Source of the DNA: Pseudorhodoferax soli
GTDB lineage: Bacteria > Pseudomonadota > Gammaproteobacteria > Burkholderiales > Burkholderiaceae_C
Direction: 5' to 3'
NCBI RefSeq assembly: GCF_003337555.1
Contig: NZ_QPJK01000021.1
Coordinates: forward strand, 1 to 48,388
DNA: 48,388 nucleotides
Every line of letters starts with the position of its first letter. Positions within the stretch are counted from its first letter, which is position 1. Shown here piece by piece: positions 5,324-48,388 of the stretch. Below the pieces are notes generated by a model. That model searched no databases. It saw only the letters and a list, made by a program, of their open reading frames with translations, and was not told the origin of the DNA. The translations under genes were made by a program, and so were the position numbers.

Positions 5324-6213
5324 GCGCGGTGCAAGCCACGGCCCCGCTGCCGCGCAGCGACAGTGCCGCCACCGGCATCGCGCTGTTCCTGGGCGCGCTG
5401 GTGCTGTTCGCCGCCTACGACGCGTTCGCCAAGCAGATGGTGGCCAGCTACGCGCCGGCCGTCGTCAACCTGGGCCGCTACACCGCCATCGGCGCGCTGG
5501 CCTTCGTGCTGCTGCTGCGCCATGGCGACCTGCGCCTGTGGCGCCAGCCGCACCAGAAGCTGCTCACCGCGCGCAGCGTGTCGCTGGCCATCGTGGCCAC
5601 CTGCTTCATGACGGCGCTGGTGACCATGCCGCTGGCCGAGGCCACGGCCATCTACTTCACGGCACCGCTGATCATGGTGGCGCTGTCGCCCTGGCTGCTC
5701 GGCGAACGCGTGGGCCGCGCGCAGTGGACAGCCGTGCTGCTGGGCTTCGCGGGCATGCTGTGCATCGTGCGGCCCGGCGGCAGCCTGCCGCTGGTGGGCA
5801 CGCTGCTGATGGCGGTGTCGGCGGTCTGCTATGCGGTGTTCCAGGTGCTCACGCGCAAGCTCTCGGGCCTGGTGCCGGGGCCGGTGCAATTCGCCCACAT
5901 GGCGCTGGCCTGCCTCGTCGTCACCAACATGCCGGTGCTGTTCATGCCGCACGTCACGCTGCCGCCGTGGCCCGAGATGGCGCTGCTGATCGCCGGTGGC
6001 GCCGTGAGCGGTTGCGCCCAGCTGCTGTTGCTGGCCGCGTTCCGCCGCGTCGGCGCGGCCACGCTGGCGCCGCTCAACTACGTGCAGCTGCTGCTGGCGG
6101 TGCTGATCAGCACGCTGTGGTTCCAGCGCCCGCCGGACGCACTGGCGCTGGTGGGCATGGCGTTGATCGCTGTCGCCGGCGTGTACCTCGCCAGGGCCCG
6201 CCGGCCCGCATGA
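5320..6213 (+). CDS. EamA/DMT-family transporter
   Basis: 297 residues with about ten hydrophobic helices and an internal repeat typical of the drug/metabolite transporter superfamily. Examples are LFLGALVLFAAYDAFAKQMV at the start and the half-way motif FTAPLIMVALSPWLLGERVG, with its conserved proline and glutamate. It is an inner-membrane protein expected to move a small amine or amino acid across the membrane. The ATG overlaps the stop of the amidohydrolase, so it is translated with the operon. Import versus export cannot be decided. Confidence 0.85.
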   Translation: MSAVQATAPLPRSDSAATGIALFLGALVLFAAYDAFAKQMVASYAPAVVNLGRYTAIGALAFVLLLRHGDLRLWRQPHQKLLTARSVSLAIVATCFMTALVTMPLAEATAIYFTAPLIMVALSPWLLGERVGRAQWTAVLLGFAGMLCIVRPGGSLPLVGTLLMAVSAVCYAVFQVLTRKLSGLVPGPVQFAHMALACLVVTNMPVLFMPHVTLPPWPEMALLIAGGAVSGCAQLLLLAAFRRVGAATLAPLNYVQLLLAVLISTLWFQRPPDALALVGMALIAVAGVYLARARRPA

Positions 6214-6249
6214 TCCAGACCAACACACGAGAGACAAAGGGAGCACACC

Positions 6250-6939
6250 ATGAGCACGAGCCGGCTTGAAGCCGCCGCCCCACCCGCCTTCTCCTCGATC
6301 CAGATGCCGGATCTGGTCGGCGTGGTCGAGGCGCAGCTGCAGGAGGCCATCCTGTCGGGCCGCATTGCGCCCGGCGAGCGCATCGTCGAGGCCGAGTTGG
6401 CACGGCAGATGGGCGTGAGCCGCGCGCCCGTGCGCGAGGCCGCGCGCCGGCTCGAGAGCCTGGGCCTCTTGGTCTCGCGCCCGCGCCACGGCTTCGCGGT
6501 GCGCACGGTCTCGTCCAAGCAGGTCAACGACCTCTACGAAGTGCGCATCCAGCTCGAGCTGCTGGGCGCCGCGCTGGCCTGCCAGCACGCCAGTGACGCC
6601 GAACTCGCCGCACTCGATGCGCGCGTGAACGACATGGTGGAGCGCGCCGAGACCATGGCGTCGCAGGAGCGCGTGGCGCTGGACCTGGACTTCCACTTCG
6701 CGATCAGCGCGCTCTCGGGCAACCACTACCTGCACCGTTTGTTCGACAACATGCAGACCGAAGTGCGCATGTTTCTCGCGCTCAGTGAAGACAGCTACGG
6801 CGACCTCAAGGTGCTGGCAGAGACGCACCGGCCGATCGCCCAGGCCATGGCCCGGCGCGACGTGGATGCGGTGCAGCATGCGCTGTGCTTCCATCTGGAA
6901 GACGCCAAGGCGCATGCCAGCGGACTCTTCAAAAACTGA
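6250..6939 (+). CDS. GntR-family regulator, FadR/FCD subfamily
   Basis: 229 residues. The N-terminal winged helix (about 20-85) carries GERIVEAELARQMGVSRAPVREAARRLESLGLL, followed by a wing of the form SRPRHGFAV. The C-terminal all-helical FCD domain (about 95-225) has the metal/ligand-type histidines in LDFHFAISALSGNHY and ALCFHLEDA. GGGAGCA precedes the start. As the last gene of the catabolic operon it is the natural candidate for its regulator, responding to a carboxylate or amine intermediate. No operator was identified. Confidence 0.87.
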   Translation: MSTSRLEAAAPPAFSSIQMPDLVGVVEAQLQEAILSGRIAPGERIVEAELARQMGVSRAPVREAARRLESLGLLVSRPRHGFAVRTVSSKQVNDLYEVRIQLELLGAALACQHASDAELAALDARVNDMVERAETMASQERVALDLDFHFAISALSGNHYLHRLFDNMQTEVRMFLALSEDSYGDLKVLAETHRPIAQAMARRDVDAVQHALCFHLEDAKAHASGLFKN

Positions 6940-6991
6940 CATGAAAAGCCGCCTGTCAGCGCGCAGCACGCCAAGTCTCGCCCCATGCTTT

Positions 6992-7668
6992 GGCCGAGCG
7001 CAGCGATGGCCCGAGCCCCAGGCCGAGCGCAGCGACGGCCCGTGTGGGACTTCCCCCTGTGCCACTGCCGAGGAGCGCAGTGCCATGGGCTGCGCGGGGA
7101 ACCTCGCGCTTCAACATCTGACTCATTGCGCTTGTCCGAGCGTAGTGAACGCAGTGAACGGTGCGAGTTGCGCAATGCAGCCCATGGCGCGAGCACCGCA
7201 GGTTGCCCGGAGCGTTAGCGGAGGGACAGGGGCACCGGGGTCGCCTTCTTTTGCTTACTTTTCTTGGCGAAGCAAGAAAAGTGAGTCGTCGTGCGGGGGC
7301 GAAATCCCCGCCTCCTCATCTCGATCCACAGTTGGTGTGCATAGAAACACTGCTTTGAAACAAGCACCAGGGACCGGGATATGCCCCCGGCAGTGCAGTC
7401 ACTTTCTCTTGCTCGCCCAAGAGAAAGTAACCAAAGAGAAGGCGGCCCCGGTGCCCCCGTCCCTGCGCTGGCGCTCCGGGCAACCTGCGGTGCTCGCGGC
7501 CTGGGCGCATTGCACAACTCGCACCACTCACTGCGTTCGTTCAGCTCGAACAAGTGCAATGAGTCAGTTATTGAAGCGCGAGGTTCCCCGCGCCGCCCAG
7601 TCCACTGCGCTCCTCGGCGTGGGCACAGGGGTGGGAGCGGGGTCACACACGGGCCATCGCTGCGCTCG
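6992..7668 (+). repeat. Composite inverted repeat, copy A (about 0.68 kb, non-coding)
   Basis: Two related modules in head-to-head orientation around a centre at about 7300-7390. The left module begins with two tandem copies of a GGCCGAGCGCAGCGA-type unit. It then has 12-bp arms 7082-7093 and 7177-7188, inner arms CATTGCGC 7124-7131 and GCGCAATG 7170-7177, and a perfect 10-bp hairpin 7257-7282 (ACTTTTCTTG, six-base loop). The right module mirrors this with CATTGCAC/GTGCAATG (7508-7515, 7554-7561), CTGGGCG/CGCCCAG (7501-7507, 7594-7600) and a perfect 11-bp hairpin 7401-7428 (ACTTTCTCTTG). Open frames cross it but match no family, so I treat the whole gap 6940-7694 as non-coding. Confidence 0.85.
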
Positions 7669-34745: not shown

Positions 34746-34884
34746 GGGCGGCGATCATAAGTCGGCCGGCGCGCTGCGGCCTTCGGCCACCAGTGGGGCA
34801 AATTGACCCAGGGCGGGCGCGCCCGGGCCACGGTGCTGCAGGGACGCTGGCTATACTGCGCCCGCCCTCGGAACCACGTTCCGC

Positions 34885-35165
34885 GGGCATCCGTGCGACA
34901 GGTGTCCGCATGCCCTGCATGTGGAGTAAACGGGAACGGGGTGAAGGCTGCAGCCACGATGAGGCGGCGGCCCAGGCCCCGGCTGCCCCCGCAACGGTAA
35001 GCAAGCGACAACGCCGATCGCCTCTCTGGCAGGACCATCCTGCCAGGCGGGCCGTCACTGGGTTCGCACGTGGTCTGCCACAGCAGATGCGCGACGGGCC
35101 TGGGAAGACGCGGCGCTGGCAGGGCCTCCCTCTGCCCCTTGCGAGCCCGGAGACCGGCCTGGCGC
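34885..35165 (+). ncRNA. Cobalamin riboswitch
   Basis: Conserved elements occur in the right order: GGGCAT/ATGCCC arms (34885-34890, 34910-34915), AAACGGGAACGGGGTGAA (34927-34944), GGCTGCCCCCGCAACGGTAAGC (34981-35002, core GCCCCCGCAAC), CACTGGG (about 35055), CCTGGGAAGACGCGG (35099-35113) and a textbook B12 box GAGCCCGGAGACCGGCC (35143-35159). A TATACT at 34852 may be the -10 of its promoter. It controls the CbiM-like and BtuF-like genes that follow, and should reduce expression when adenosyl- or methylcobalamin is plentiful. Precise edges are approximate. Confidence 0.92.
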
Positions 35166-35248
35166 GTTCGTGCATGCCCAGCATGCGAAAGCCAGCCGTC
35201 TGCGGGGTGCAGGCAGCGGCGCTCGGCCGCCTGGCGCACGCGCGCAGC

Positions 35249-37138: not shown

Positions 37139-38886
37139 TCAGCACCAGGCCTCGGCGTGCAGGCACTCGGCGCCCCAGGCCTGCGCCAGCGCCTGCGCGC
37201 GGCCCAGCCGCAGGCGGCCCAGCTCGAAGTCCACCACGCGCAGCTGCGCAGCCTCTGCCGGGCGCGCCGGCCAGTCGCGCGAACGGCCGTCGGTCAAGAG
37301 CCAGAGCCAGCCCTCGCCGCCGGCCCGGGCCAGCAGCTGCCCGGCCTGGGCGATGGCCGGGCCCAGCGGCGTGCCGCCGCCACCGCCGATCGGATGCACC
37401 CAGTCGTCGTTCCAGGCCGCGGCCTTGCGCGGCGGCAGGCGCAGTTCCACGCGCGTGCCGGCGAAGCACAGCAGCGCCACGCGCTCGCGCCGGCGGTAGG
37501 CCTGCTCCATCAGCGCCAGCAACACGCCCTTGGCACGCGCGAGCGCGCCGCCGCTGGCCATCGAGCCCGAGCAATCGAGCACGAAACAGTGCAGCCGCTG
37601 GCTGGACGGCGGCTGCGGCTGGCGATGCAGGTGCTGCCACGCGAGTGGCGCTGCACCGCGTGCCGCGAAGGTCGCGGGCCAGTCCCAGCCGCCGGTGGCG
37701 GCGCCGCGCTGCGGCGGGCTCGCGGTCTGCGCCTTCGCACCGGGCGCGCGCCCTGCCGCCAGGCCGGGCGCTGCGTCGGCACGAAGGCTCAGGCTTTTTT
37801 TGCGGCGGCCCTCGTGCCGGCTGGCAGCAGGTCGGGCACGGCCAGGCGCACGGTGCCCACGGGCTCGGCCGGCATCGCCCCCCAGTCCGACACTGCGTCG
37901 CCGCGGCCCTGGGCGGTGCTCTCGCCGACATGCGCCTGCGGCGGTGGGGCCGCAGGCGGCGTCGCTGGTGCCGGTGCCGGCGCGGACGAAGGCGCTGGCG
38001 CTGCCACCCCCGGCTTGCGCCGGTGCACGAGCGCCAGTTCGGCCACGGCCTGCACGTGCGCGGGCGTGACCTCTGCATCGCCCTGCCAGGCCGCCAAGGC
38101 ACGCGCCGCGCGCAGCAGCACGAGGTCGGCGCGCACGCCGTCCACCTCGGCTTGCACGCACAGCGCGCCCGCGGCCTGCAGCACCGCGTCGGACCAGGGC
38201 AGCGCCTCGGGGCCCAGCACGCGGGCGCGGGCCATGGCCAGCCGCTCGGCCAGCGCGGCCTGCGCCGCGGCATGCCGGGTGCGGAAGGCCGCCGGATCGG
38301 CCTCGAACTGCAGCCGCGCGCGCACGATGGCCTGGCGCTCCGCCGGGTCGGCCACGTTGGCCAGGCGCACGCACAGGCCCAGGCGGTCCAGCAGCTGCGG
38401 GCGCAGCGCGCCCTCCTCCGGGTTCATGGTGCCCACGAGCACGAAGCGCGCGGCATGGCGGTGCGAGATGCCGTCGCGCTCGACCGCGTTGACGCCGCTG
38501 GCCGCGGCATCGAGCAGCACGTCGACAAGGGCGTCGGGCAGCAGGTTGATCTCGTCCACGTAGAGCACGCCGCCGTGCGCGCGCGCCAGCAGGCCGGGCG
38601 CGAACCGCACGGCGTGGCCGGCCAGGGCCTGCTGCAGGTCGAGCGTGCCGGCCACGTGCGCGAGCGAGGCGCCCAGCGGCAGCGTGACGAAGGGCGCGGC
38701 AGGGATCAGCTCGGCCAGCGCGCGCGCGGCCGTGGACTTGGCCGTGCCGCGCGGGCCTTCGACGAGCACGCCGCCGATGCGCGGGTCGATCGCGGCCAGC
38801 AGCAGCGCCTGGCGCAGCGCGGGCTGGCCGGCGATGGCGGCGAACGGGAACAGCGCGGGCAGCTCGGTGGCTTCGGTGGCGCTCAT
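37139..38886 (-). CDS. chlD: ChlD-type cobalt-chelatase medium subunit, made by -1 frameshift (AAA+ plus VWA)
   Basis: Reading frame 0 from 38886 to codon AAA at 37797-37795 (364 codons), then a -1 shift and 218 further codons to the TGA at 37139-37141, gives a 582-residue protein. The N-terminal AAA+ domain is shared with the short product. The tail is a VWA domain with a MIDAS site: DCSGS (about 438-442), Thr in GGGGTPLGP, and Asp in LLTDGRSRDW. The tail has no ATG before the DCSGSM segment itself, and the only GTG is at the same place, so an independent start would destroy the fold. This matches the described chlD genes that yield both chelatase subunits by programmed frameshifting next to cobN. 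Confidence 0.8.
37731..37801 (-). promoter_or_regulatory. Programmed -1 frameshift signal: A7 slippery run and downstream stem
   Basis: On the minus strand seven A's (37801-37795) are read as GCA AAA AAA GCC TGA in frame 0. After a 6-nt spacer comes a 12-pair stem (left arm 37788-37777, GCCTTCGTGCCG; right arm 37742-37731, CGGTGCGAAGGC) with ten Watson-Crick pairs and two G-U pairs. The 34-nt loop contains GCGCCC/GGGCGC, which can form a second stem. Slippery run, spacer length and stem follow the standard rules for -1 frameshift sites. The frame-0 stop lies three bases beyond the slip. Confidence 0.82.
37789..38886 (-). CDS. chlD: ChlI/CobS-like AAA+ ATPase, short product of the chlD gene
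   Basis: 365 residues if ribosomes do not shift. Walker A is EGPRGTAKST (about 43-52), Walker B is GVLYVDEINLL (106-116), and sensor/arginine-finger regions are MNPEEGALRPQLLDR. A Pro/Ala-rich linker occupies about 293-325. The ATG overlaps the stop of cobN (ATGA). In the cobalt-chelatase complex this hexameric motor drives metal insertion by CobN. The product ends AAAKKA after the slippery run. It equals the small subunit that other bacteria encode separately. Confidence 0.88.
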   Translation of the reverse strand: MSATEATELPALFPFAAIAGQPALRQALLLAAIDPRIGGVLVEGPRGTAKSTAARALAELIPAAPFVTLPLGASLAHVAGTLDLQQALAGHAVRFAPGLLARAHGGVLYVDEINLLPDALVDVLLDAAASGVNAVERDGISHRHAARFVLVGTMNPEEGALRPQLLDRLGLCVRLANVADPAERQAIVRARLQFEADPAAFRTRHAAAQAALAERLAMARARVLGPEALPWSDAVLQAAGALCVQAEVDGVRADLVLLRAARALAAWQGDAEVTPAHVQAVAELALVHRRKPGVAAPAPSSAPAPAPATPPAAPPPQAHVGESTAQGRGDAVSDWGAMPAEPVGTVRLAVPDLLPAGTRAAAKKA

Positions 38887-41800
38887 GGCCTTCCTTCCTG
38901 GTGGTTCTCGTGGTCCAGCAGCAGGTCTTCGAGCTGCTGGCGGTAGTCGCCGGGTTGCTCCCACAGGCCGCGCTGCATGGCTTCGAGCAGCCGCTCCAGC
39001 ATGCCGCGCAAGGCCTCGGGGTTGTGCTCGGCGACGAAACCGCGCGTGGCGGCGTCGAGCACGAAGGCGTCGGCCACGAGCGCGTAGTGGTGGTCGGCGA
39101 CCTGGCCCGTGGTGGCGTCGAAGCCGAACAGGTAGTCGACCGTGGCGGCCATCTCGAACGCGCCCTTGTAGCCGTGGCGCATGGCCCCCGCGATCCACTT
39201 GGGATTGGTGACGCGCGCGCGCACCACGCGGCCGATCTCCTGGTGCAGCGTGCGCACGCGCGGCTGCAGCGGGTTGGCGTTGTCGCCGTGGTAGAGCGCC
39301 GGCGTCCGGCCCGACACCGCGCGCACGGCCGCGGCCATGCCGCCCTGGAACTGCAGGTAGTCGGACGAGTCGAGGATGTCGTGTTCGCGGCTGTCCTGGT
39401 TCTGGGCCACGATGTCGAGCGCGCCCAGGCGCCGGCGCAAGGCGGCACCGGCGGGCTCGCCCTCGCTGTCCTGGCCGTAGGCATGGGCGCTCCAGCCGAT
39501 CCACGCCGTGGCCAGGTCGCCGGCGTCCTGCCAGTCACCGCTGTGCAGCAGCGGGTCCAGGCCCGTGCCGTAGTGGCCGGGCGGCGCGCCGAACACGCGC
39601 CAGCCGGCCTGGCGGCGTGCCTGCGCTTCGCCGGCGCCTTGCGCCTGCAGCGCCTGGGCTTCGGCCAGGATGCGCGCGCGGATGGGGTTGTCCTCGGCGT
39701 CTTCCTCCAGCGCGGCCACGGCCTGCACGGCGGCGTCGAACATCTGCACGGCGAGCGGAAACGCGTCGCGGAAGAAGCCCGAGATGCGCAGCGTGACGTC
39801 CACGCGCGGGCGGTGCAGGCCGGCGCGCGGCACCACCTCGAAATCCTGCACGCGCTGGCTGCCGGGGGCCCAGCGCGGCCGCACGCCGATCAGCGCGAAG
39901 GCCTGGGCGAGGTCGTCGCCGCCGGTGCGCATGGTGGCCGTGCCCCAGACCGACAGGCCCAGCGCGCGCGGGTACTCGCCGTGTTCCTGCAGGTAGCGCT
40001 CGATGAGCTGGCGCGCAGCCTGCTGGCCCAGTTCCCAGGCGGCCTGGGTCGGGATGGCGCGCGTGTCCAGCGTGTAGAAGTTGCGGCCGGTGGGCAGCAC
40101 GTCGGGCCGCCCGCGCGACGGCGAGCCGCTGGGCCCGGCCGGCACGAACAGGCCGCGCAGGCCGCGCGCGAGCTGGCGCAGCTCCTCGCTGCCGCAGGCG
40201 TCCAGGGCCGGCGCCAGCTGATCCTGCACGCGCTGCAGGACGGCCTGGGTCTGCGGCCAGCCGGCAGCCTGCCGGCCGTCGTCCAGCAGCTGCTGGGCCA
40301 GCAGTTCGAGCCGTTCGCGTGTGTCGCCTTCGTGGCGCCAGGGCTCGGCGCTCAGGGCCTGCAGTGCGGGGGGCCGCGGGCCGGCCCAGGGCCGTGCCGG
40401 CTCCAGCCGCAGCGGATCGAAGCCCGTGTCCGGCAGCAGATCGGCCGCCAGTGCCCCCAGTAGCCCGGCATCGCCGCCCGACGGAAAGCGGGCCAGCGCG
40501 AGCAAGGTGTCGCGCCGTTGCCGGCCTTCGGGCGAGCGGCCGAACACATGCAGGCCGTCGCGGATCTGCGTCTCCTTGAGTTCGCACAGGTAGGCGTCGA
40601 TGCGCTCGAGCAGTGCTTGCTCGTCGTCCTCGGCGCCCGGCGGCAGGTCCAGTTCGCCGGCCAGGTGCTGGCGCCGCACGGCGCCCACGATCTGGCGCCG
40701 CAGCAGCGCGGCACGGCGCGCGTCGACCAGCAGCGCGTCGTAGTACTCGTCCACCAGCCGCTCCAGGTCCTGCAGCGGCCCGTGGCTCTCGGCGCGCGTG
40801 AGCGGCGGCATCAGGTGGTCCACGATCACGGCCTGGCTGCGGCGCTTGGCCTGCGCGCCCTCGCCCGGGTCGTTGACGATGAAGGGGTACAGGTGCGGCA
40901 GCGGGCCCAGGATGGCGTCGGGCCAGCAGGTGCCCGAGAGCGCCAGGCTCTTGCCGGGCAGCCATTCGAGGTTGCCGTGCTTGCCCACGTGGACGATGGC
41001 GTCGATGGCGAAGGCGTCGCGCAGCCAGAAGTAGAACGCCAGGTAGTGGTGCGGCGGCACGAGCTCGGCGTCGTGGTAGGTGGCGTAGTCCTGCGCGCCG
41101 GCGGTGCTCAGCGCACGCGCCGGCTGGATGCCGATGAAGACCTGGCCCAGCCGCAGGCCGGCGACCATGAAGCGGCCCTGGCGCAGCGCCGGGTCGGCCT
41201 CGGGCGGGCCCCAGCGCGCATCGATGGCGGCGGCCATGCCGTGGGGCAGCGCGGCCAGGCGCGCCCGGTAGTCGGCCAGCGCGTAGCTTTGCCAGGCCGG
41301 GCGCAGCGGCCATTGCGCCGGGTCGTTGGCGATGCCCTGCTGCAGCAGGCGCATCAGCGCGTCGCCGTCCTGCGGCAACGGGGCGTCGCCGAGCTGGTAG
41401 CCCTCGGTGGCCAGCGCCTGCAGGATGGCCATCACCGAGGCCGGCGTGTCCAGCCCCACGCCACTGCCGATGCGGCCCTCGCTGCCCGGGTAGTTGGCCA
41501 GCACGAGCGCGAGGCGCTTCTCCTGCGGCGCCAGGCTGCGCAGCCGGCACCAGCGCTGCGCGAGCTCGGCCACGAAGTCCACGCGGTCGGGCTCGGGCTG
41601 GTAGGCCACGATGTCGGCCTGCGTGACCGGGCAGCGGTGGGCCAGGCCCTTGAAACTGACCGCGCGCGTGACGATGCGGCCGTCCATCTCGGGCAGCACC
41701 ACCTGCATGGCGATGTCGCGCGGACGCAGTCCCTGGGCATCGGCCAGCCAGTCGGCATGGTTGCCGCCGCTCGTGATGACCTGCAGCACGGGCGCGTCGC

Positions 41801-42656
41801 CGGCCAGGGCCTGGCCAGGCTCCAGCGCCGAGAAGGCCGTGGTGTTGAGCACGAGCTGCACCGCGTGCTCGCTGCACAGCGTGCGCAGCGTGGACAGGCA
41901 CAGCGCGTCCTTGAGCGAATCCAGCGCCAGCGGCAGCGGGTTCATGCCGCGCGCATGCAGCGCCAGGGCCAGCGCGTCGAAGGCGGCCGTGTTGCCCGCC
42001 AGCAGGTGCGAACGGTAGAACACCAGCGCGACCACCGGTGCGCCAGGCTTCCAGGCGGCGCGCAGGTCGTCGATGCCGGGCACGGCATGGGCCGTGGCGC
42101 ACAGCGCGGGCGGCACGTGGAGCGCCGCCTGCGGCAGGCTGCGCGGCGGGGGCGGTGCCTCGCCCTGCTGCAGGCCCAGGTGCGCTGTGGCCTGCAGGAA
42201 GGCGCGCGCGTTGGCCGGCCCGCCCGCGCGCAGGTACTGCCAGAGCAGCCGGCCATCGGCCTGCGGCAGCGTGCCACGTGCGAGCAGGTGCGGGTCTTCC
42301 TGCAGGTCGCCCGAGAACATGGCCAGGCGCTGGCCCTTGGCGCGCGCGAGTGCGGCGATCTGCTGCACGCCGTAGGGCCAGGCCGATTCCGAGCCCAGGT
42401 GGTCGACCACCACCACGCGCGCGTGCTGCAGCACCTCGTCCACGTACAGGTCGAGCGAGGCCGGCTGGCGCAGGTACAGCAGGTTGGCCAGGCGCAGGCT
42501 GGGGTAGCCGGGCAGTTGCTGGGCGGCGGCCGACAACAGGGCCAGCGTGGTGTCGGCCGAGCTCAGCACGACGATGTCGGCCGGCTGCTGGTCGAGCCGC
42601 GTGACGATGCTGGGGTCTTCGACGAAGCCGCCGGGGCGGGTGGACAGCAGGTGCAT
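38883..42656 (-). CDS. cobN: Cobaltochelatase subunit CobN
   Basis: 1257 residues, the usual CobN size. Start is the ATG at 42656 with GGAG upstream. Conserved CobN/BchH blocks are visible, for example VLANYPGSEGRIGSGVGLDTP, VGKHGNLEWLPGKSLALSG, LYPFIVNDPGEGAQAKRRSQ, and near the end NPKWIAGAMRHGYKGAFEMA. CobN binds hydrogenobyrinate a,c-diamide and inserts cobalt in the aerobic pathway, powered by the AAA+ and VWA subunits encoded immediately downstream. No other corrin-ring genes lie in the window, so cobalt handling is clustered apart from ring synthesis, if that is present at all. Confidence 0.95.
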   Translation of the reverse strand: MHLLSTRPGGFVEDPSIVTRLDQQPADIVVLSSADTTLALLSAAAQQLPGYPSLRLANLLYLRQPASLDLYVDEVLQHARVVVVDHLGSESAWPYGVQQIAALARAKGQRLAMFSGDLQEDPHLLARGTLPQADGRLLWQYLRAGGPANARAFLQATAHLGLQQGEAPPPPRSLPQAALHVPPALCATAHAVPGIDDLRAAWKPGAPVVALVFYRSHLLAGNTAAFDALALALHARGMNPLPLALDSLKDALCLSTLRTLCSEHAVQLVLNTTAFSALEPGQALAGDAPVLQVITSGGNHADWLADAQGLRPRDIAMQVVLPEMDGRIVTRAVSFKGLAHRCPVTQADIVAYQPEPDRVDFVAELAQRWCRLRSLAPQEKRLALVLANYPGSEGRIGSGVGLDTPASVMAILQALATEGYQLGDAPLPQDGDALMRLLQQGIANDPAQWPLRPAWQSYALADYRARLAALPHGMAAAIDARWGPPEADPALRQGRFMVAGLRLGQVFIGIQPARALSTAGAQDYATYHDAELVPPHHYLAFYFWLRDAFAIDAIVHVGKHGNLEWLPGKSLALSGTCWPDAILGPLPHLYPFIVNDPGEGAQAKRRSQAVIVDHLMPPLTRAESHGPLQDLERLVDEYYDALLVDARRAALLRRQIVGAVRRQHLAGELDLPPGAEDDEQALLERIDAYLCELKETQIRDGLHVFGRSPEGRQRRDTLLALARFPSGGDAGLLGALAADLLPDTGFDPLRLEPARPWAGPRPPALQALSAEPWRHEGDTRERLELLAQQLLDDGRQAAGWPQTQAVLQRVQDQLAPALDACGSEELRQLARGLRGLFVPAGPSGSPSRGRPDVLPTGRNFYTLDTRAIPTQAAWELGQQAARQLIERYLQEHGEYPRALGLSVWGTATMRTGGDDLAQAFALIGVRPRWAPGSQRVQDFEVVPRAGLHRPRVDVTLRISGFFRDAFPLAVQMFDAAVQAVAALEEDAEDNPIRARILAEAQALQAQGAGEAQARRQAGWRVFGAPPGHYGTGLDPLLHSGDWQDAGDLATAWIGWSAHAYGQDSEGEPAGAALRRRLGALDIVAQNQDSREHDILDSSDYLQFQGGMAAAVRAVSGRTPALYHGDNANPLQPRVRTLHQEIGRVVRARVTNPKWIAGAMRHGYKGAFEMAATVDYLFGFDATTGQVADHHYALVADAFVLDAATRGFVAEHNPEALRGMLERLLEAMQRGLWEQPGDYRQQLEDLLLDHENHQEGRP

Positions 42657-42684
42657 GTCAGTGCTCCAGGGCGACAAAGCCCGC

Positions 42685-43358
42685 GGCCGAGCGCAGCGAT
42701 GGCACGAGTCCCAGGCCGAGCGCAGCGATGGCCCGTGTGGGAGTTCCCCCTGTGCCCACGCCGAGGAGCACAGTGGACTGGGCGGCGCGGGGAACCTCGC
42801 GCTTTGTGAACTGACTCATTGCACTTGTCCGAGCTGAGTGAACGCAGTGAACGGTGCGAGTTGTGCAATGCGCCCAGGCCGCGAGCACCGCAGGTTGCCC
42901 GGAGCGCCAGCGCAGGGACGGGGGCACCGGGGCCGCCTTCTCTTTGGTTACTTTCTCTTGGCGGAGCAAGAGAAAGTGACTGCACTGCCGGGGGCATATC
43001 CCGGTCCCTGGTGCTCGTGCGAACGCAGTGCGTTCTATGCACGGAAGTTGCTGATCGGCGTTCGGGAGCGGGGATTTCGCCCCCGCACGACGACTCACTT
43101 TTCTTGCTTCGCCAAGAAAAGTAAGCAAAAGAAGGCGACCCCGCTGCCCCTGTCCTTCCGCTTCGCTCCAGGCAACCTGCGGTGCTCGCACCATGGGCTG
43201 CATTGCGCAACTCGCACCGTTCGCTTCGCTCACTACGCTCGGACAAGCGCAATGAGTCAGTTCACGAAGCGCGAGGTTCCCCGCGCAGCCCATGGCACTG
43301 CGCTCCTCGGCAGGGGCACAGGGGGAAGTCCCACACGGGCCATCGCTGCGCTCGGCCG
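42685..43358 (-). repeat. Composite inverted repeat, copy B (about 0.67 kb, opposite orientation to copy A)
   Basis: Same two modules as copy A but in reversed order on the + strand. First comes the module with CATTGCAC/GTGCAATG (42817-42824, 42863-42870) and hairpin ACTTTCTCTTG/CAAGAGAAAGT (42950-42960, 42967-42977). Then comes the module with hairpin ACTTTTCTTG/CAAGAAAAGT (43097-43106, 43113-43122), CATTGCGC/GCGCAATG and CCATGGGCTGC/GCAGCCCATGG. The centre (about 43010-43075) differs most from copy A. It fills the 750-bp gap between cobW and cobN. Open frames cross it but resemble no family. Confidence 0.85.
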
Positions 43359-43408: not shown

Positions 43409-44452
43409 TCAGGCCTGGACGCCCGCCAGGCCCGCGCGCAGCGCGGCCTCGTCCAGGTCCTGGCCGATGAACACGAGCCGCGTGCCGCGTCGCTCGCCCT
43501 CGCGCCAGGCGCGGTCGAAATGGTGGTCCAGCCTTCTGCCCACGCCCTGCAGCAGCCAGCGCATCGGCTTGCCGGGAATCTCCGCGAAGCCCTTCACGCG
43601 CAGGATGGTCTGCTGCTCCACCAGCCGCGCCAGGGCGGCCAGCAGGCGCTCGCGGTCCACGGCCGGCAACTCGACCACGTGCGCGTCGAACGCGTCGTGG
43701 TCGTGGTCTTCGTCGTGGTCGTGGTGGCTCACGCGCTGGTCGATGGTGGTCTCGGCCGCCTTGGCCAGGCCCAGCAGCACGTCGAGCGGCAGCTGGCCCT
43801 GGGTCGACTGCACGATCTTCACGGCGGGCGGCAGCTCCTCGCGCACCAGGGCGGTCACGCGCGCCAGGGCAGCGGCGTCGACCAGGTCGGTCTTGTTCAG
43901 CACCACGAGGTCGGCGGCCGAGAGCTGGTCTTCGAACAGCTCGTGCAGCGGCGATTCGTGGTCGAGGTTGGCATCGGCACGGCGCTGTTCGTCCACGGCC
44001 GCCGGGTTGGCCGCGAACTGGCCGGCATCGGCGGCCGGCGTGTCGACCACGGTGACCACCGCGTCGACCGTGAACACGTTGGCGATCTCCGGCCACTGGA
44101 AGGCCTGCACCAGCGGCTTGGGCAGCGCCAGGCCGCTGGTCTCGATCAGCACCGCGTCGATGCGGTCGCGGCGCGCGGCCAGCTGCTGCATGACGGGGAA
44201 GAACTCTTCCTGCACGGTGCAGCACATGCAGCCGTTGGCCAGCTCGTAGAGCGCGCCTTCCTGCACCTGGCCGTCTTCGTCGCAGCCGATGCCGCAGCCC
44301 TTGAGGATCTCGCCGTCGATGCCGAGTTCGCCGAACTCGTTGACGATCACGGCGATGCGCCGGCCGTCGGCGTTGTCCAGGATGTGGCGCAGCAGCGTGG
44401 TCTTGCCGCTGCCCAGGAAGCCGGTGACGATGGTGGCGGGGATCTTTTGCAT
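43409..44452 (-). CDS. cobW: CobW-family GTP-dependent metallochaperone
   Basis: 347 residues. The P-loop is VTGFLGSGKTTLLRH. The metal-binding Cys motif GCMCCT is present, and the GTP base motif is VVLNKTDLVD. A histidine/aspartate tract (HHDHDEDHDHD, about residue 238-248) before the C-terminal domain should hold extra metal. TGGAGAAG precedes the ATG. Placement upstream of cobN supports delivery of Co(II) to the chelatase. Zinc-type paralogues have the same fold, so context carries the assignment. Confidence 0.92.
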   Translation of the reverse strand: MQKIPATIVTGFLGSGKTTLLRHILDNADGRRIAVIVNEFGELGIDGEILKGCGIGCDEDGQVQEGALYELANGCMCCTVQEEFFPVMQQLAARRDRIDAVLIETSGLALPKPLVQAFQWPEIANVFTVDAVVTVVDTPAADAGQFAANPAAVDEQRRADANLDHESPLHELFEDQLSAADLVVLNKTDLVDAAALARVTALVREELPPAVKIVQSTQGQLPLDVLLGLAKAAETTIDQRVSHHDHDEDHDHDAFDAHVVELPAVDRERLLAALARLVEQQTILRVKGFAEIPGKPMRWLLQGVGRRLDHHFDRAWREGERRGTRLVFIGQDLDEAALRAGLAGVQA

Positions 44453-48165: not shown

Positions 48166-48388
48166 GGCCGAGCGCAGCGAAGGCCCGAAACCCAGGCCGA
48201 GCGCAGCGATGGCCCGTGTGTGACCCCGCTCCCACCCCTGTGCCCACGCCGAGGAGCGCAGTGGGCTGGGCGGCGCGGGGAACCTCGCGCTTTGTGAACT
48301 GACTCATTGCACTTGTCCGAGCTGAACGAACGCAGTGAGTGGTGCGAGTTGTGCAATGCGCCCAGGCCGCGAGCACCGCAGGTTGCCC
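48166..48388 (+). repeat. Composite inverted repeat, copy C (cut by window edge)
   Basis: The start of another copy. It has two tandem GGCCGAGCGCAGCGA-type units, then the module with CATTGCAC and GTGCAATG arms, ending at GCACCGCAGGTTGCCC at the edge. It matches the left module of copy B closely. The hairpin and the second module would lie outside the window. It sits directly upstream of the BtuF-like gene. Confidence 0.8.

Follow-up and report, generated by a model that had tools for sequence, protein, structure and literature searches.

One chlD gene for two putative cobalt-chelatase subunits in Pseudorhodoferax soli: a probable case of programmed -1 ribosomal frameshifting

Introduction

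Can a single gene supply two parts of the same enzyme, and by what means? The question is raised by a chlD gene of Pseudorhodoferax soli, in which a ChlI-like AAA+ half ends at a stop codon just after a run of seven A's, while a VWA half lies in the -1 frame beyond it. The gene lies in the stretch of DNA analysed here, hereafter the window, which comprises positions 1 to 48,388 of contig NZ_QPJK01000021.1 (assembly GCF_003337555.1).

Genes of this type, called fs-chlD, have been described as yielding both chelatase subunits (Kuznetsov 2022, PMC9227772). Antonov 2013 (PMC3711429) gives the -1 frameshifting measured in E. coli for three genes of one cluster as 63, 40 and 10%, the 10% value belonging to a 7-A cassette, and lists Burkholderia and Delftia within this 23-gene cluster. 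A preliminary description of the window tied its chlD gene to this reported frameshift, and the tie is borne out by relatives, in which the slip site, the spacing, the stem and the cobN overlap recur. Antonov 2020 (Mol Biol Evol) reportedly belongs to the same literature on the -1 frameshift of fs-chlD.

Results

The draft genome from which the window comes has a size of 8.16 Mb in 30 contigs. On its minus strand, the order of genes is cobW, cobN and then the frameshifted chlD. The cobaltochelatase large subunit CobN is encoded at 38883-42677 (TIGR02257, 1526 bits against a cut-off of 822), and cobW lies upstream of cobN and chlD in the same orientation at 43409-44452 (TIGR02475, 511.5 bits against a cut-off of 332). 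The overlap of chlD with cobN noted in the preliminary description is real: the cobN stop and the chlD start share the sequence ATGA, with GGAAGG just before it. The closest named relative at chlD is Pseudorhodoferax sp. Leaf265, with 89% over 498 columns, and the gene is present in five of six genomes of the same genus.

A cobalamin riboswitch (RF00174, 55.3 bits) at 34883-35176 on the plus strand fits a B12 locus; it precedes plus-strand ORFs that on inspection resemble transporter genes, and an ORF opposite it resembles a TonB receptor. The window also contains an intergenic repeat of about 125-158 nt in three copies (42714-42900, 43200-43357 and 48235-48388), which are pairwise 86-96% alike and occur in both orientations, two of them sitting between cobN and cobW.

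The frame-0 ORF runs on the minus strand from the ATG at 38886 to the TGA at 37791-37789 (37789-38886) and encodes a putative small subunit of 365 aa with a ChlI-like AAA+ domain. Its best model is TIGR02442, the NCBIfam putative cobaltochelatase, with 371.6 bits over residues 64-318, which lies under the whole-protein cut-off of 779, as expected of a half. The -1 continuation (37139-37795, minus strand, 218 aa) consists of a linker and a VWA domain; it scores 78.3 bits with TIGR02442 and 37.5 bits with PF13519, above the Pfam cut-off of 27. TIGR02442 thus spans both halves in order, with model positions 87-338 in the first and 466-639 in the second. The chlD matches are to the ChlI/ChlD-type models TIGR02442, TIGR02030 and TIGR02031, and the CobS and CobT models TIGR01650 and TIGR01651 are absent from them at E 0.001. 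The -1 frame sequence displays DCSGS, GTP and TDG, which we take to be the parts of a MIDAS site.

Between the two halves lies the slip site A_AAA_AAA at 37801-37795, in phase as GC[A AAA AAA], so that frame 0 ends ...GCA AAA AAA GCC TGA and the stop begins three bases past the A-run, exactly as had been claimed. Read across the junction, the -1 frame gives KK-SLSLR and stays open to 37139, and the joined product would comprise 582 aa. The range first given for the gene, 37731-38886, therefore omits most of the VWA coding sequence, which reaches 37139.

The VWA half continues unbroken, and no start codon is evident for it alone. In the window, a scan of the -1 frame that began 60 nt ahead of the end of the run and finished 12 nt short of the MIDAS site met no ATG, GTG or TTG. 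One GTG lies within the VWA domain, two codons ahead of the MIDAS Asp, and the -1 frame is open across the entire frame-0 ORF, where GTG codons occur at 38374 and 38161. Hence, of the earlier statement that an intact VWA domain lacks a usable start, the domain and the absence of a nearby start stand, while the distant and intradomain GTG codons make the absence of a usable start a judgement and not an absolute.

To place the junction among its relatives, the first half of the gene was used as the query of similarity searches, which gave 80 loci and, in addition, loci in family and genus genomes. The VWA half lay in the -1 frame in 67 rows, 66 of them with an in-phase A_AAA_AAR; after removal of four duplicates, the heptamer is in phase in 62 of 63 distinct relatives. 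The only exception, L084 (Veillonella), has no slip site, and its VWA match is weak (E 4e-5) and lies 1.4 kb downstream. The statistics below refer to the 62 junctions that possess a slip site, the rows dropped being L004, L089 (= window), L126 (= L009), L108 (= L017) and L084. The window itself, 32 junctions from the 80 loci and 29 from genomes of the family or genus make up the set; 32 strong family matches had yielded 30 loci, window included, with G296 and G079 left out. Among the 80 loci, the VWA half is in the -1 frame with a slip site in 32, in the same frame as the first half in 38, in the +1 frame in one and in the -1 frame without a slip site in one, and the remaining eight have no VWA match, L039 among them, which carries A6G before its stop.

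The in-phase heptamer is A7 in 56 and A6G in 6 of the 62 junctions, and it occurs at none of the 21,728 other codon positions of the same ORFs. The frame-0 stop lies one codon past the slip site in 59 junctions and 24 nt past it in two (L111 and L112, both with A7); in the remaining row, L015, which lies on a short contig, the frame read from the start of the match breaks early. In the window, counting both strands, AAAAAAR occurs three times in two runs against 0.26 expected. The three cluster genes use AAG for Lys 22 times and AAA twice, both AAA codons being in the chlI part, which fits a slip site.

A sequencing error or a decayed gene would also produce a split ORF, homopolymer runs are error-prone, and the assembly is a draft. 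The same phase of the A-run in 62 of 63 distinct relatives, with both halves open and conserved, refutes this explanation, to which we assign a negligible probability; the homologue comparison proposed with the preliminary description thus rules out a sequencing slip.

The stem described earlier is also present as stated, beginning 6 nt past the slip site on the minus strand (37731-37788), with a 12-bp outer stem (37788-37777 paired with 37742-37731) that includes two G-U pairs, and an inner stem (37775-37745) within its loop. Folding of the window sequence gave a minimum free energy (MFE) of -50.6 kcal/mol for a stretch of 70 nt (z -4.39), with none of 200 dinucleotide shuffles as stable, and none of 300 synonymous shuffles reached an equally long helix at +6. 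The 12-bp stem is among the longest of the 62.

When the longest helix with its first pair exactly at +6 is taken from each of the 62 junctions, the mean length is 7.87 bp, compared with 4.54 bp after synonymous shuffling of the -1 frame, the largest mean among 300 shuffled sets being 5.08 bp. The shuffles matter because the helix partner is chosen to pair. At 55 of the 62 junctions, a downstream structure of at least 6 bp is found at +6, compared with 24.5% of shuffles, and when start positions from 0 to 29 are scanned, mean helix length peaks at +6. The paired bases change together: stem position 4 is A-U in 29, U-A in 14, C-G in 12, G-C in 4 and G-U in one of 60 junctions, and position 5 is C-G in 35, U-A in 16 and U-G in 5. 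Position 5 varies even among members of the genus: the window, L009 and L097 have U-A there, and L127 and L098 have C-G. The stem is therefore kept at +6 beyond the demands of the protein, with compensatory changes. Such pairwise covariation fits the statement, in the accessible parts of Atkins 2016 (PMC5009743), that the potential for structure is strong and the sequence not strongly conserved. The same source suggests that a stem split into purines and pyrimidines may point to a triplex; where the helix reaches 6 bp or more, in 55 junctions, the 5' arms are on average 63% pyrimidine.

Three observations on the stem count against frameshifting. Taken singly, 21 of the 62 junctions have a +6 helix longer than chance (p < 0.05); seven have a helix under 6 bp; and the MFE over 75 nt is only modestly lower than in synonymous shuffles (z averages -1.06 and is below -2 in 15 of the 62; the window has -1.83), total MFE being a weaker measure of stem conservation than the helix at +6.

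Upstream of the slip site, a third element may be present in many relatives. A Shine-Dalgarno-like word (GGAG, GAGG or AGGA) starts 11-15 nt ahead of the run in 26 of the 62 junctions, against 7.4 expected from synonymous frame-0 codon shuffles (sd 2.0, largest 14 of 300). Word starts fall at -14 (19), -15 (12), -13 (4) and -12 (2), whereas single positions from -40 to -149 have a mean of 0.6 and a largest value of 7. The spacing from word to slip site is 7-11 nt, mostly 10-11 nt, and this commonest spacing lies within the 9-14 nt that PMC5009743 names for a Shine-Dalgarno sequence that stimulates -1 shifts. Codon -14 encodes Gly in 21 of the 62, and 16 of these use GGA, compared with 3.7% of the Gly codons elsewhere in the ORFs (Fisher p 1.6e-18, a value that ignores kinship). 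On a quick tree, the presence of the word requires 13 changes, at least 8 of them on well-supported branches.

In the window, the corresponding word is a weak GAGG (37810-37813, minus strand) that begins at -12, 8 nt ahead of the A-run and slightly closer than the 9-14 nt range of PMC5009743 (accessible parts), and of the four further members of the genus among the junctions, three lack the word. A third element is thus doubtful for the window itself. For the family at large, we give even odds to the proposal that many fs-chlD genes carry, inside the gene, a dnaX-like Shine-Dalgarno word at 10-11 nt ahead of the slip site, often at the cost of a rare GGA Gly codon; the word would have been gained or lost several times and would tune the shift rate, and with it the small:medium ratio, by species. 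A trade-off between stem and word was considered and rejected: the helix averages 7.85 bp in the 26 junctions with the word and 7.89 bp in the 36 without it (p 0.77), and independent pairs on the tree give no signal of a trade-off. The 75-nt MFE points in the opposite direction, at -41.8 for junctions that have the word and -37.4 for those that lack it (p 0.010, with no correction for kinship).

The elements on both sides of the run bear on whether the polymerase or the ribosome slips. In transcriptional slippage, RNA polymerase would add an A, and ordinary translation of the A8 mRNA would give the long protein. A-runs are common to transcriptional slippage and ribosomal frameshifting, and four of the 62 runs are longer than that of the window, with eight A's in two and nine in two Chloroflexi. 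The other 58, however, have seven (53) or six (5) A's, which is short for polymerase slippage, placed at n > 7 in the accessible parts of PMC3711429, and a stem at +6 together with a Shine-Dalgarno-like word at a near-fixed upstream distance points to ribosomes and not to the polymerase. We therefore regard transcriptional slippage as most unlikely.

The second alternative holds that there are two genes with coupled termination and re-initiation, in which ribosomes terminate at the UGA and begin again in the -1 frame, for instance at the overlapping CUG, to make a separate VWA protein. The -1 codon that overlaps the stop is CTG in 48, GTG in two and ATG in one of the 62, and some -1-frame ATG, GTG or TTG occurs in the scanned stretch of 53, although the window has none there. 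A plasmid search, used solely to view public annotation, matched 40 records, of which two cover 80% or more of the query. Two annotated relatives list the halves as 'ATP-binding protein' and 'VWA domain-containing protein', the second with a GTG start. Both, however, have an in-phase A7 one codon before the stop. In 11 of the 62, the overlapping codon is CTA, TTA or CCG and the slip site is still kept, and the search for an ordinary separate VWA start in homologues, which had been named as a possible refutation, turned up just 5 start codons preceded by a Shine-Dalgarno-like word. The conserved upstream word itself precedes the overlapping codon by some 19 nt, a distance too great for initiation, and the slip site by 10-11 nt. 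Re-initiation is accordingly an extremely improbable account of these junctions, and programmed -1 frameshifting is preferred to it.

The link to cobalt chelation rests on the neighbouring genes. In 56 of the 62 loci, cobN directly precedes the gene in the same orientation, and L122 has a CobN match further off. In five (L015, L016, L073, L082 and L101, of which L073 and L082 are Chloroflexi), no CobN was found in the available stretch, which extends 26 to 5,230 bases upstream; these count against the chelatase reading. Among 150 family genomes, CobN is above its cut-off in 15, and the same 15 have a first-half match with E below 1e-95, a correspondence that compares two tables and assumes that the 150 genomes are G000-G149, with which the genomes listed agree. 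G016 was not counted as having chlD, its match being fragmentary (65-82%, in pieces) and its genome having no CobN above the cut-off. The window genome has only one CobN/BchH-type match and no second ChlI/BchI, the two other matches both being 34% over about 110 residues, which makes magnesium chelation unlikely.

The preliminary description had also stated that no cobT or second chlI gene is nearby. This is true locally, and for ChlI/BchI it holds across the genome, yet a CobS-like and CobT-like pair lies on contig C4 (468537-471187; L143 10451-13200, minus strand), unlinked to cobN. Both members fall below the curated cut-offs, the CobS-like protein just under at 502 bits (cut-off 559) and the CobT-like protein at 316 bits (cut-off 759), and the genome, which has no other ChlI/BchI, thus holds a CobS-like candidate for a separate small-subunit gene. 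It is conceivable on this account that the frameshift is real and that the C4 pair is the true cobalt-chelatase motor, fs-chlD doing otherwise. The pair, however, sits on a different contig from cobN and chlD, and its distribution does not follow CobN. A CobS-like match of 497-532 bits, always under the cut-off, is seen in 15 of the 150 family genomes; only 4 of these have CobN above its cut-off, and the match is missing in 11 of the 15 CobN genomes, all of which have the chlD first-half match. Since the CobS-like match occurs mostly in genomes without CobN (11 of 15), the C4 pair probably does not serve as the motor of the cobalt chelatase, a role we consider very unlikely for it, but is a related AAA+/VWA machine that does not track CobN.

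Fused relatives speak for the long product as a natural protein, because 38 of the 80 loci have both halves in one frame. One of them, L012 (Acidovorax sp. SUPP3334, 5500-7062), is a fused chlD that adjoins cobN and is nested among frameshift genes in the tree. The stretch around its junction has no run of more than four A's, and no close second ChlI was found in its genome, which counts against a universal need for both sizes. Making both sizes may thus not always be needed, and L012 offers a natural case for asking whether the short product is required. Two further arrangements were seen: in L054 (Corynebacterium xerosis, about 7050-7214), the VWA half follows the ChlI half in the +1 frame, by a possible +1 shift or as a separate gene, and Hydrogenophaga intermedia (G318) has two distinct chlI/chlD copies, C44:135571-136554 and C76:22458-23441, with 61-62% to the window.

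Discussion

The best reading of the locus, with a probability of about 0.92, is that a cobalt-chelatase gene is expressed here through programmed -1 ribosomal frameshifting. The reading frames, the conserved cassette and the linkage to CobN are features of the DNA itself; from them we infer that ribosomes slip here and that both products are chelatase subunits, and for the rate of slipping the 10% of a 7-A cassette of this family in E. coli is a published value. In this mechanism, the gene would be the fs-chlD of an aerobic cobalt chelatase. Ribosomes would start at the ATG at 38886 and translate the AAA+ part, and the downstream stem would slow them on A_AAA_AAA. Many would remain in frame and terminate after one further Ala, which yields the 365-aa small subunit in the role of CobS/ChlI, while others would slip by -1 and continue through the linker and VWA domain to give the 582-aa medium subunit in the role of CobT/ChlD. 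Both products would act with CobN, encoded just upstream.

The locus thus offers a clear case in which ribosomal slipping probably lets a single gene supply two components of the same enzyme. Both annotated relatives mentioned above, which have the slip site, list chlD as two genes, the second with a GTG start, and the long subunit is consequently missing from the annotation. The conserved stem and upstream word would be exact, testable controls of subunit ratio in vitamin B12 synthesis. Relative to PMC9227772 and the accessible parts of PMC3711429 and PMC5009743, in which we did not find the upstream word described, stem covariation and the word are a modest addition in detail; Antonov 2020 (10.1093/molbev/msaa081) could contain the word, and may include both.

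Three known systems invite comparison. E. coli dnaX has the same A_AAA_AAR and a downstream stem, and some chlD relatives share with it an upstream Shine-Dalgarno-like word at the dnaX distance (PMC5009743, accessible parts). In dnaX, however, the shifted product is the short one (same source), whereas in chlD it is the long one, and the Shine-Dalgarno-like word of the window is weak. The CobN-CobS-CobT system with separate genes has the same CobN family and the same AAA+ plus VWA make-up, but here the small and medium subunits would come from one ChlI/ChlD-type gene and not from cobS and cobT. The closest likeness is to the fs-chlD or 'magnesium chelatase' frameshift genes (PMC9227772 and the accessible parts of PMC3711429 and PMC5009743), which share with the window a ChlI-like N-terminal part, A_AAA_AAR, a stem, a VWA half in the -1 frame, cobN beside the gene and no other ChlI/BchI; Delftia and Burkholderia of the 2013 cluster belong to the same order as the window organism. 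No categorical difference from these genes was seen, the window genome having in addition its CobS/CobT-like pair. The chlD frameshift is an already published kind, of which the window is a well-supported further case.
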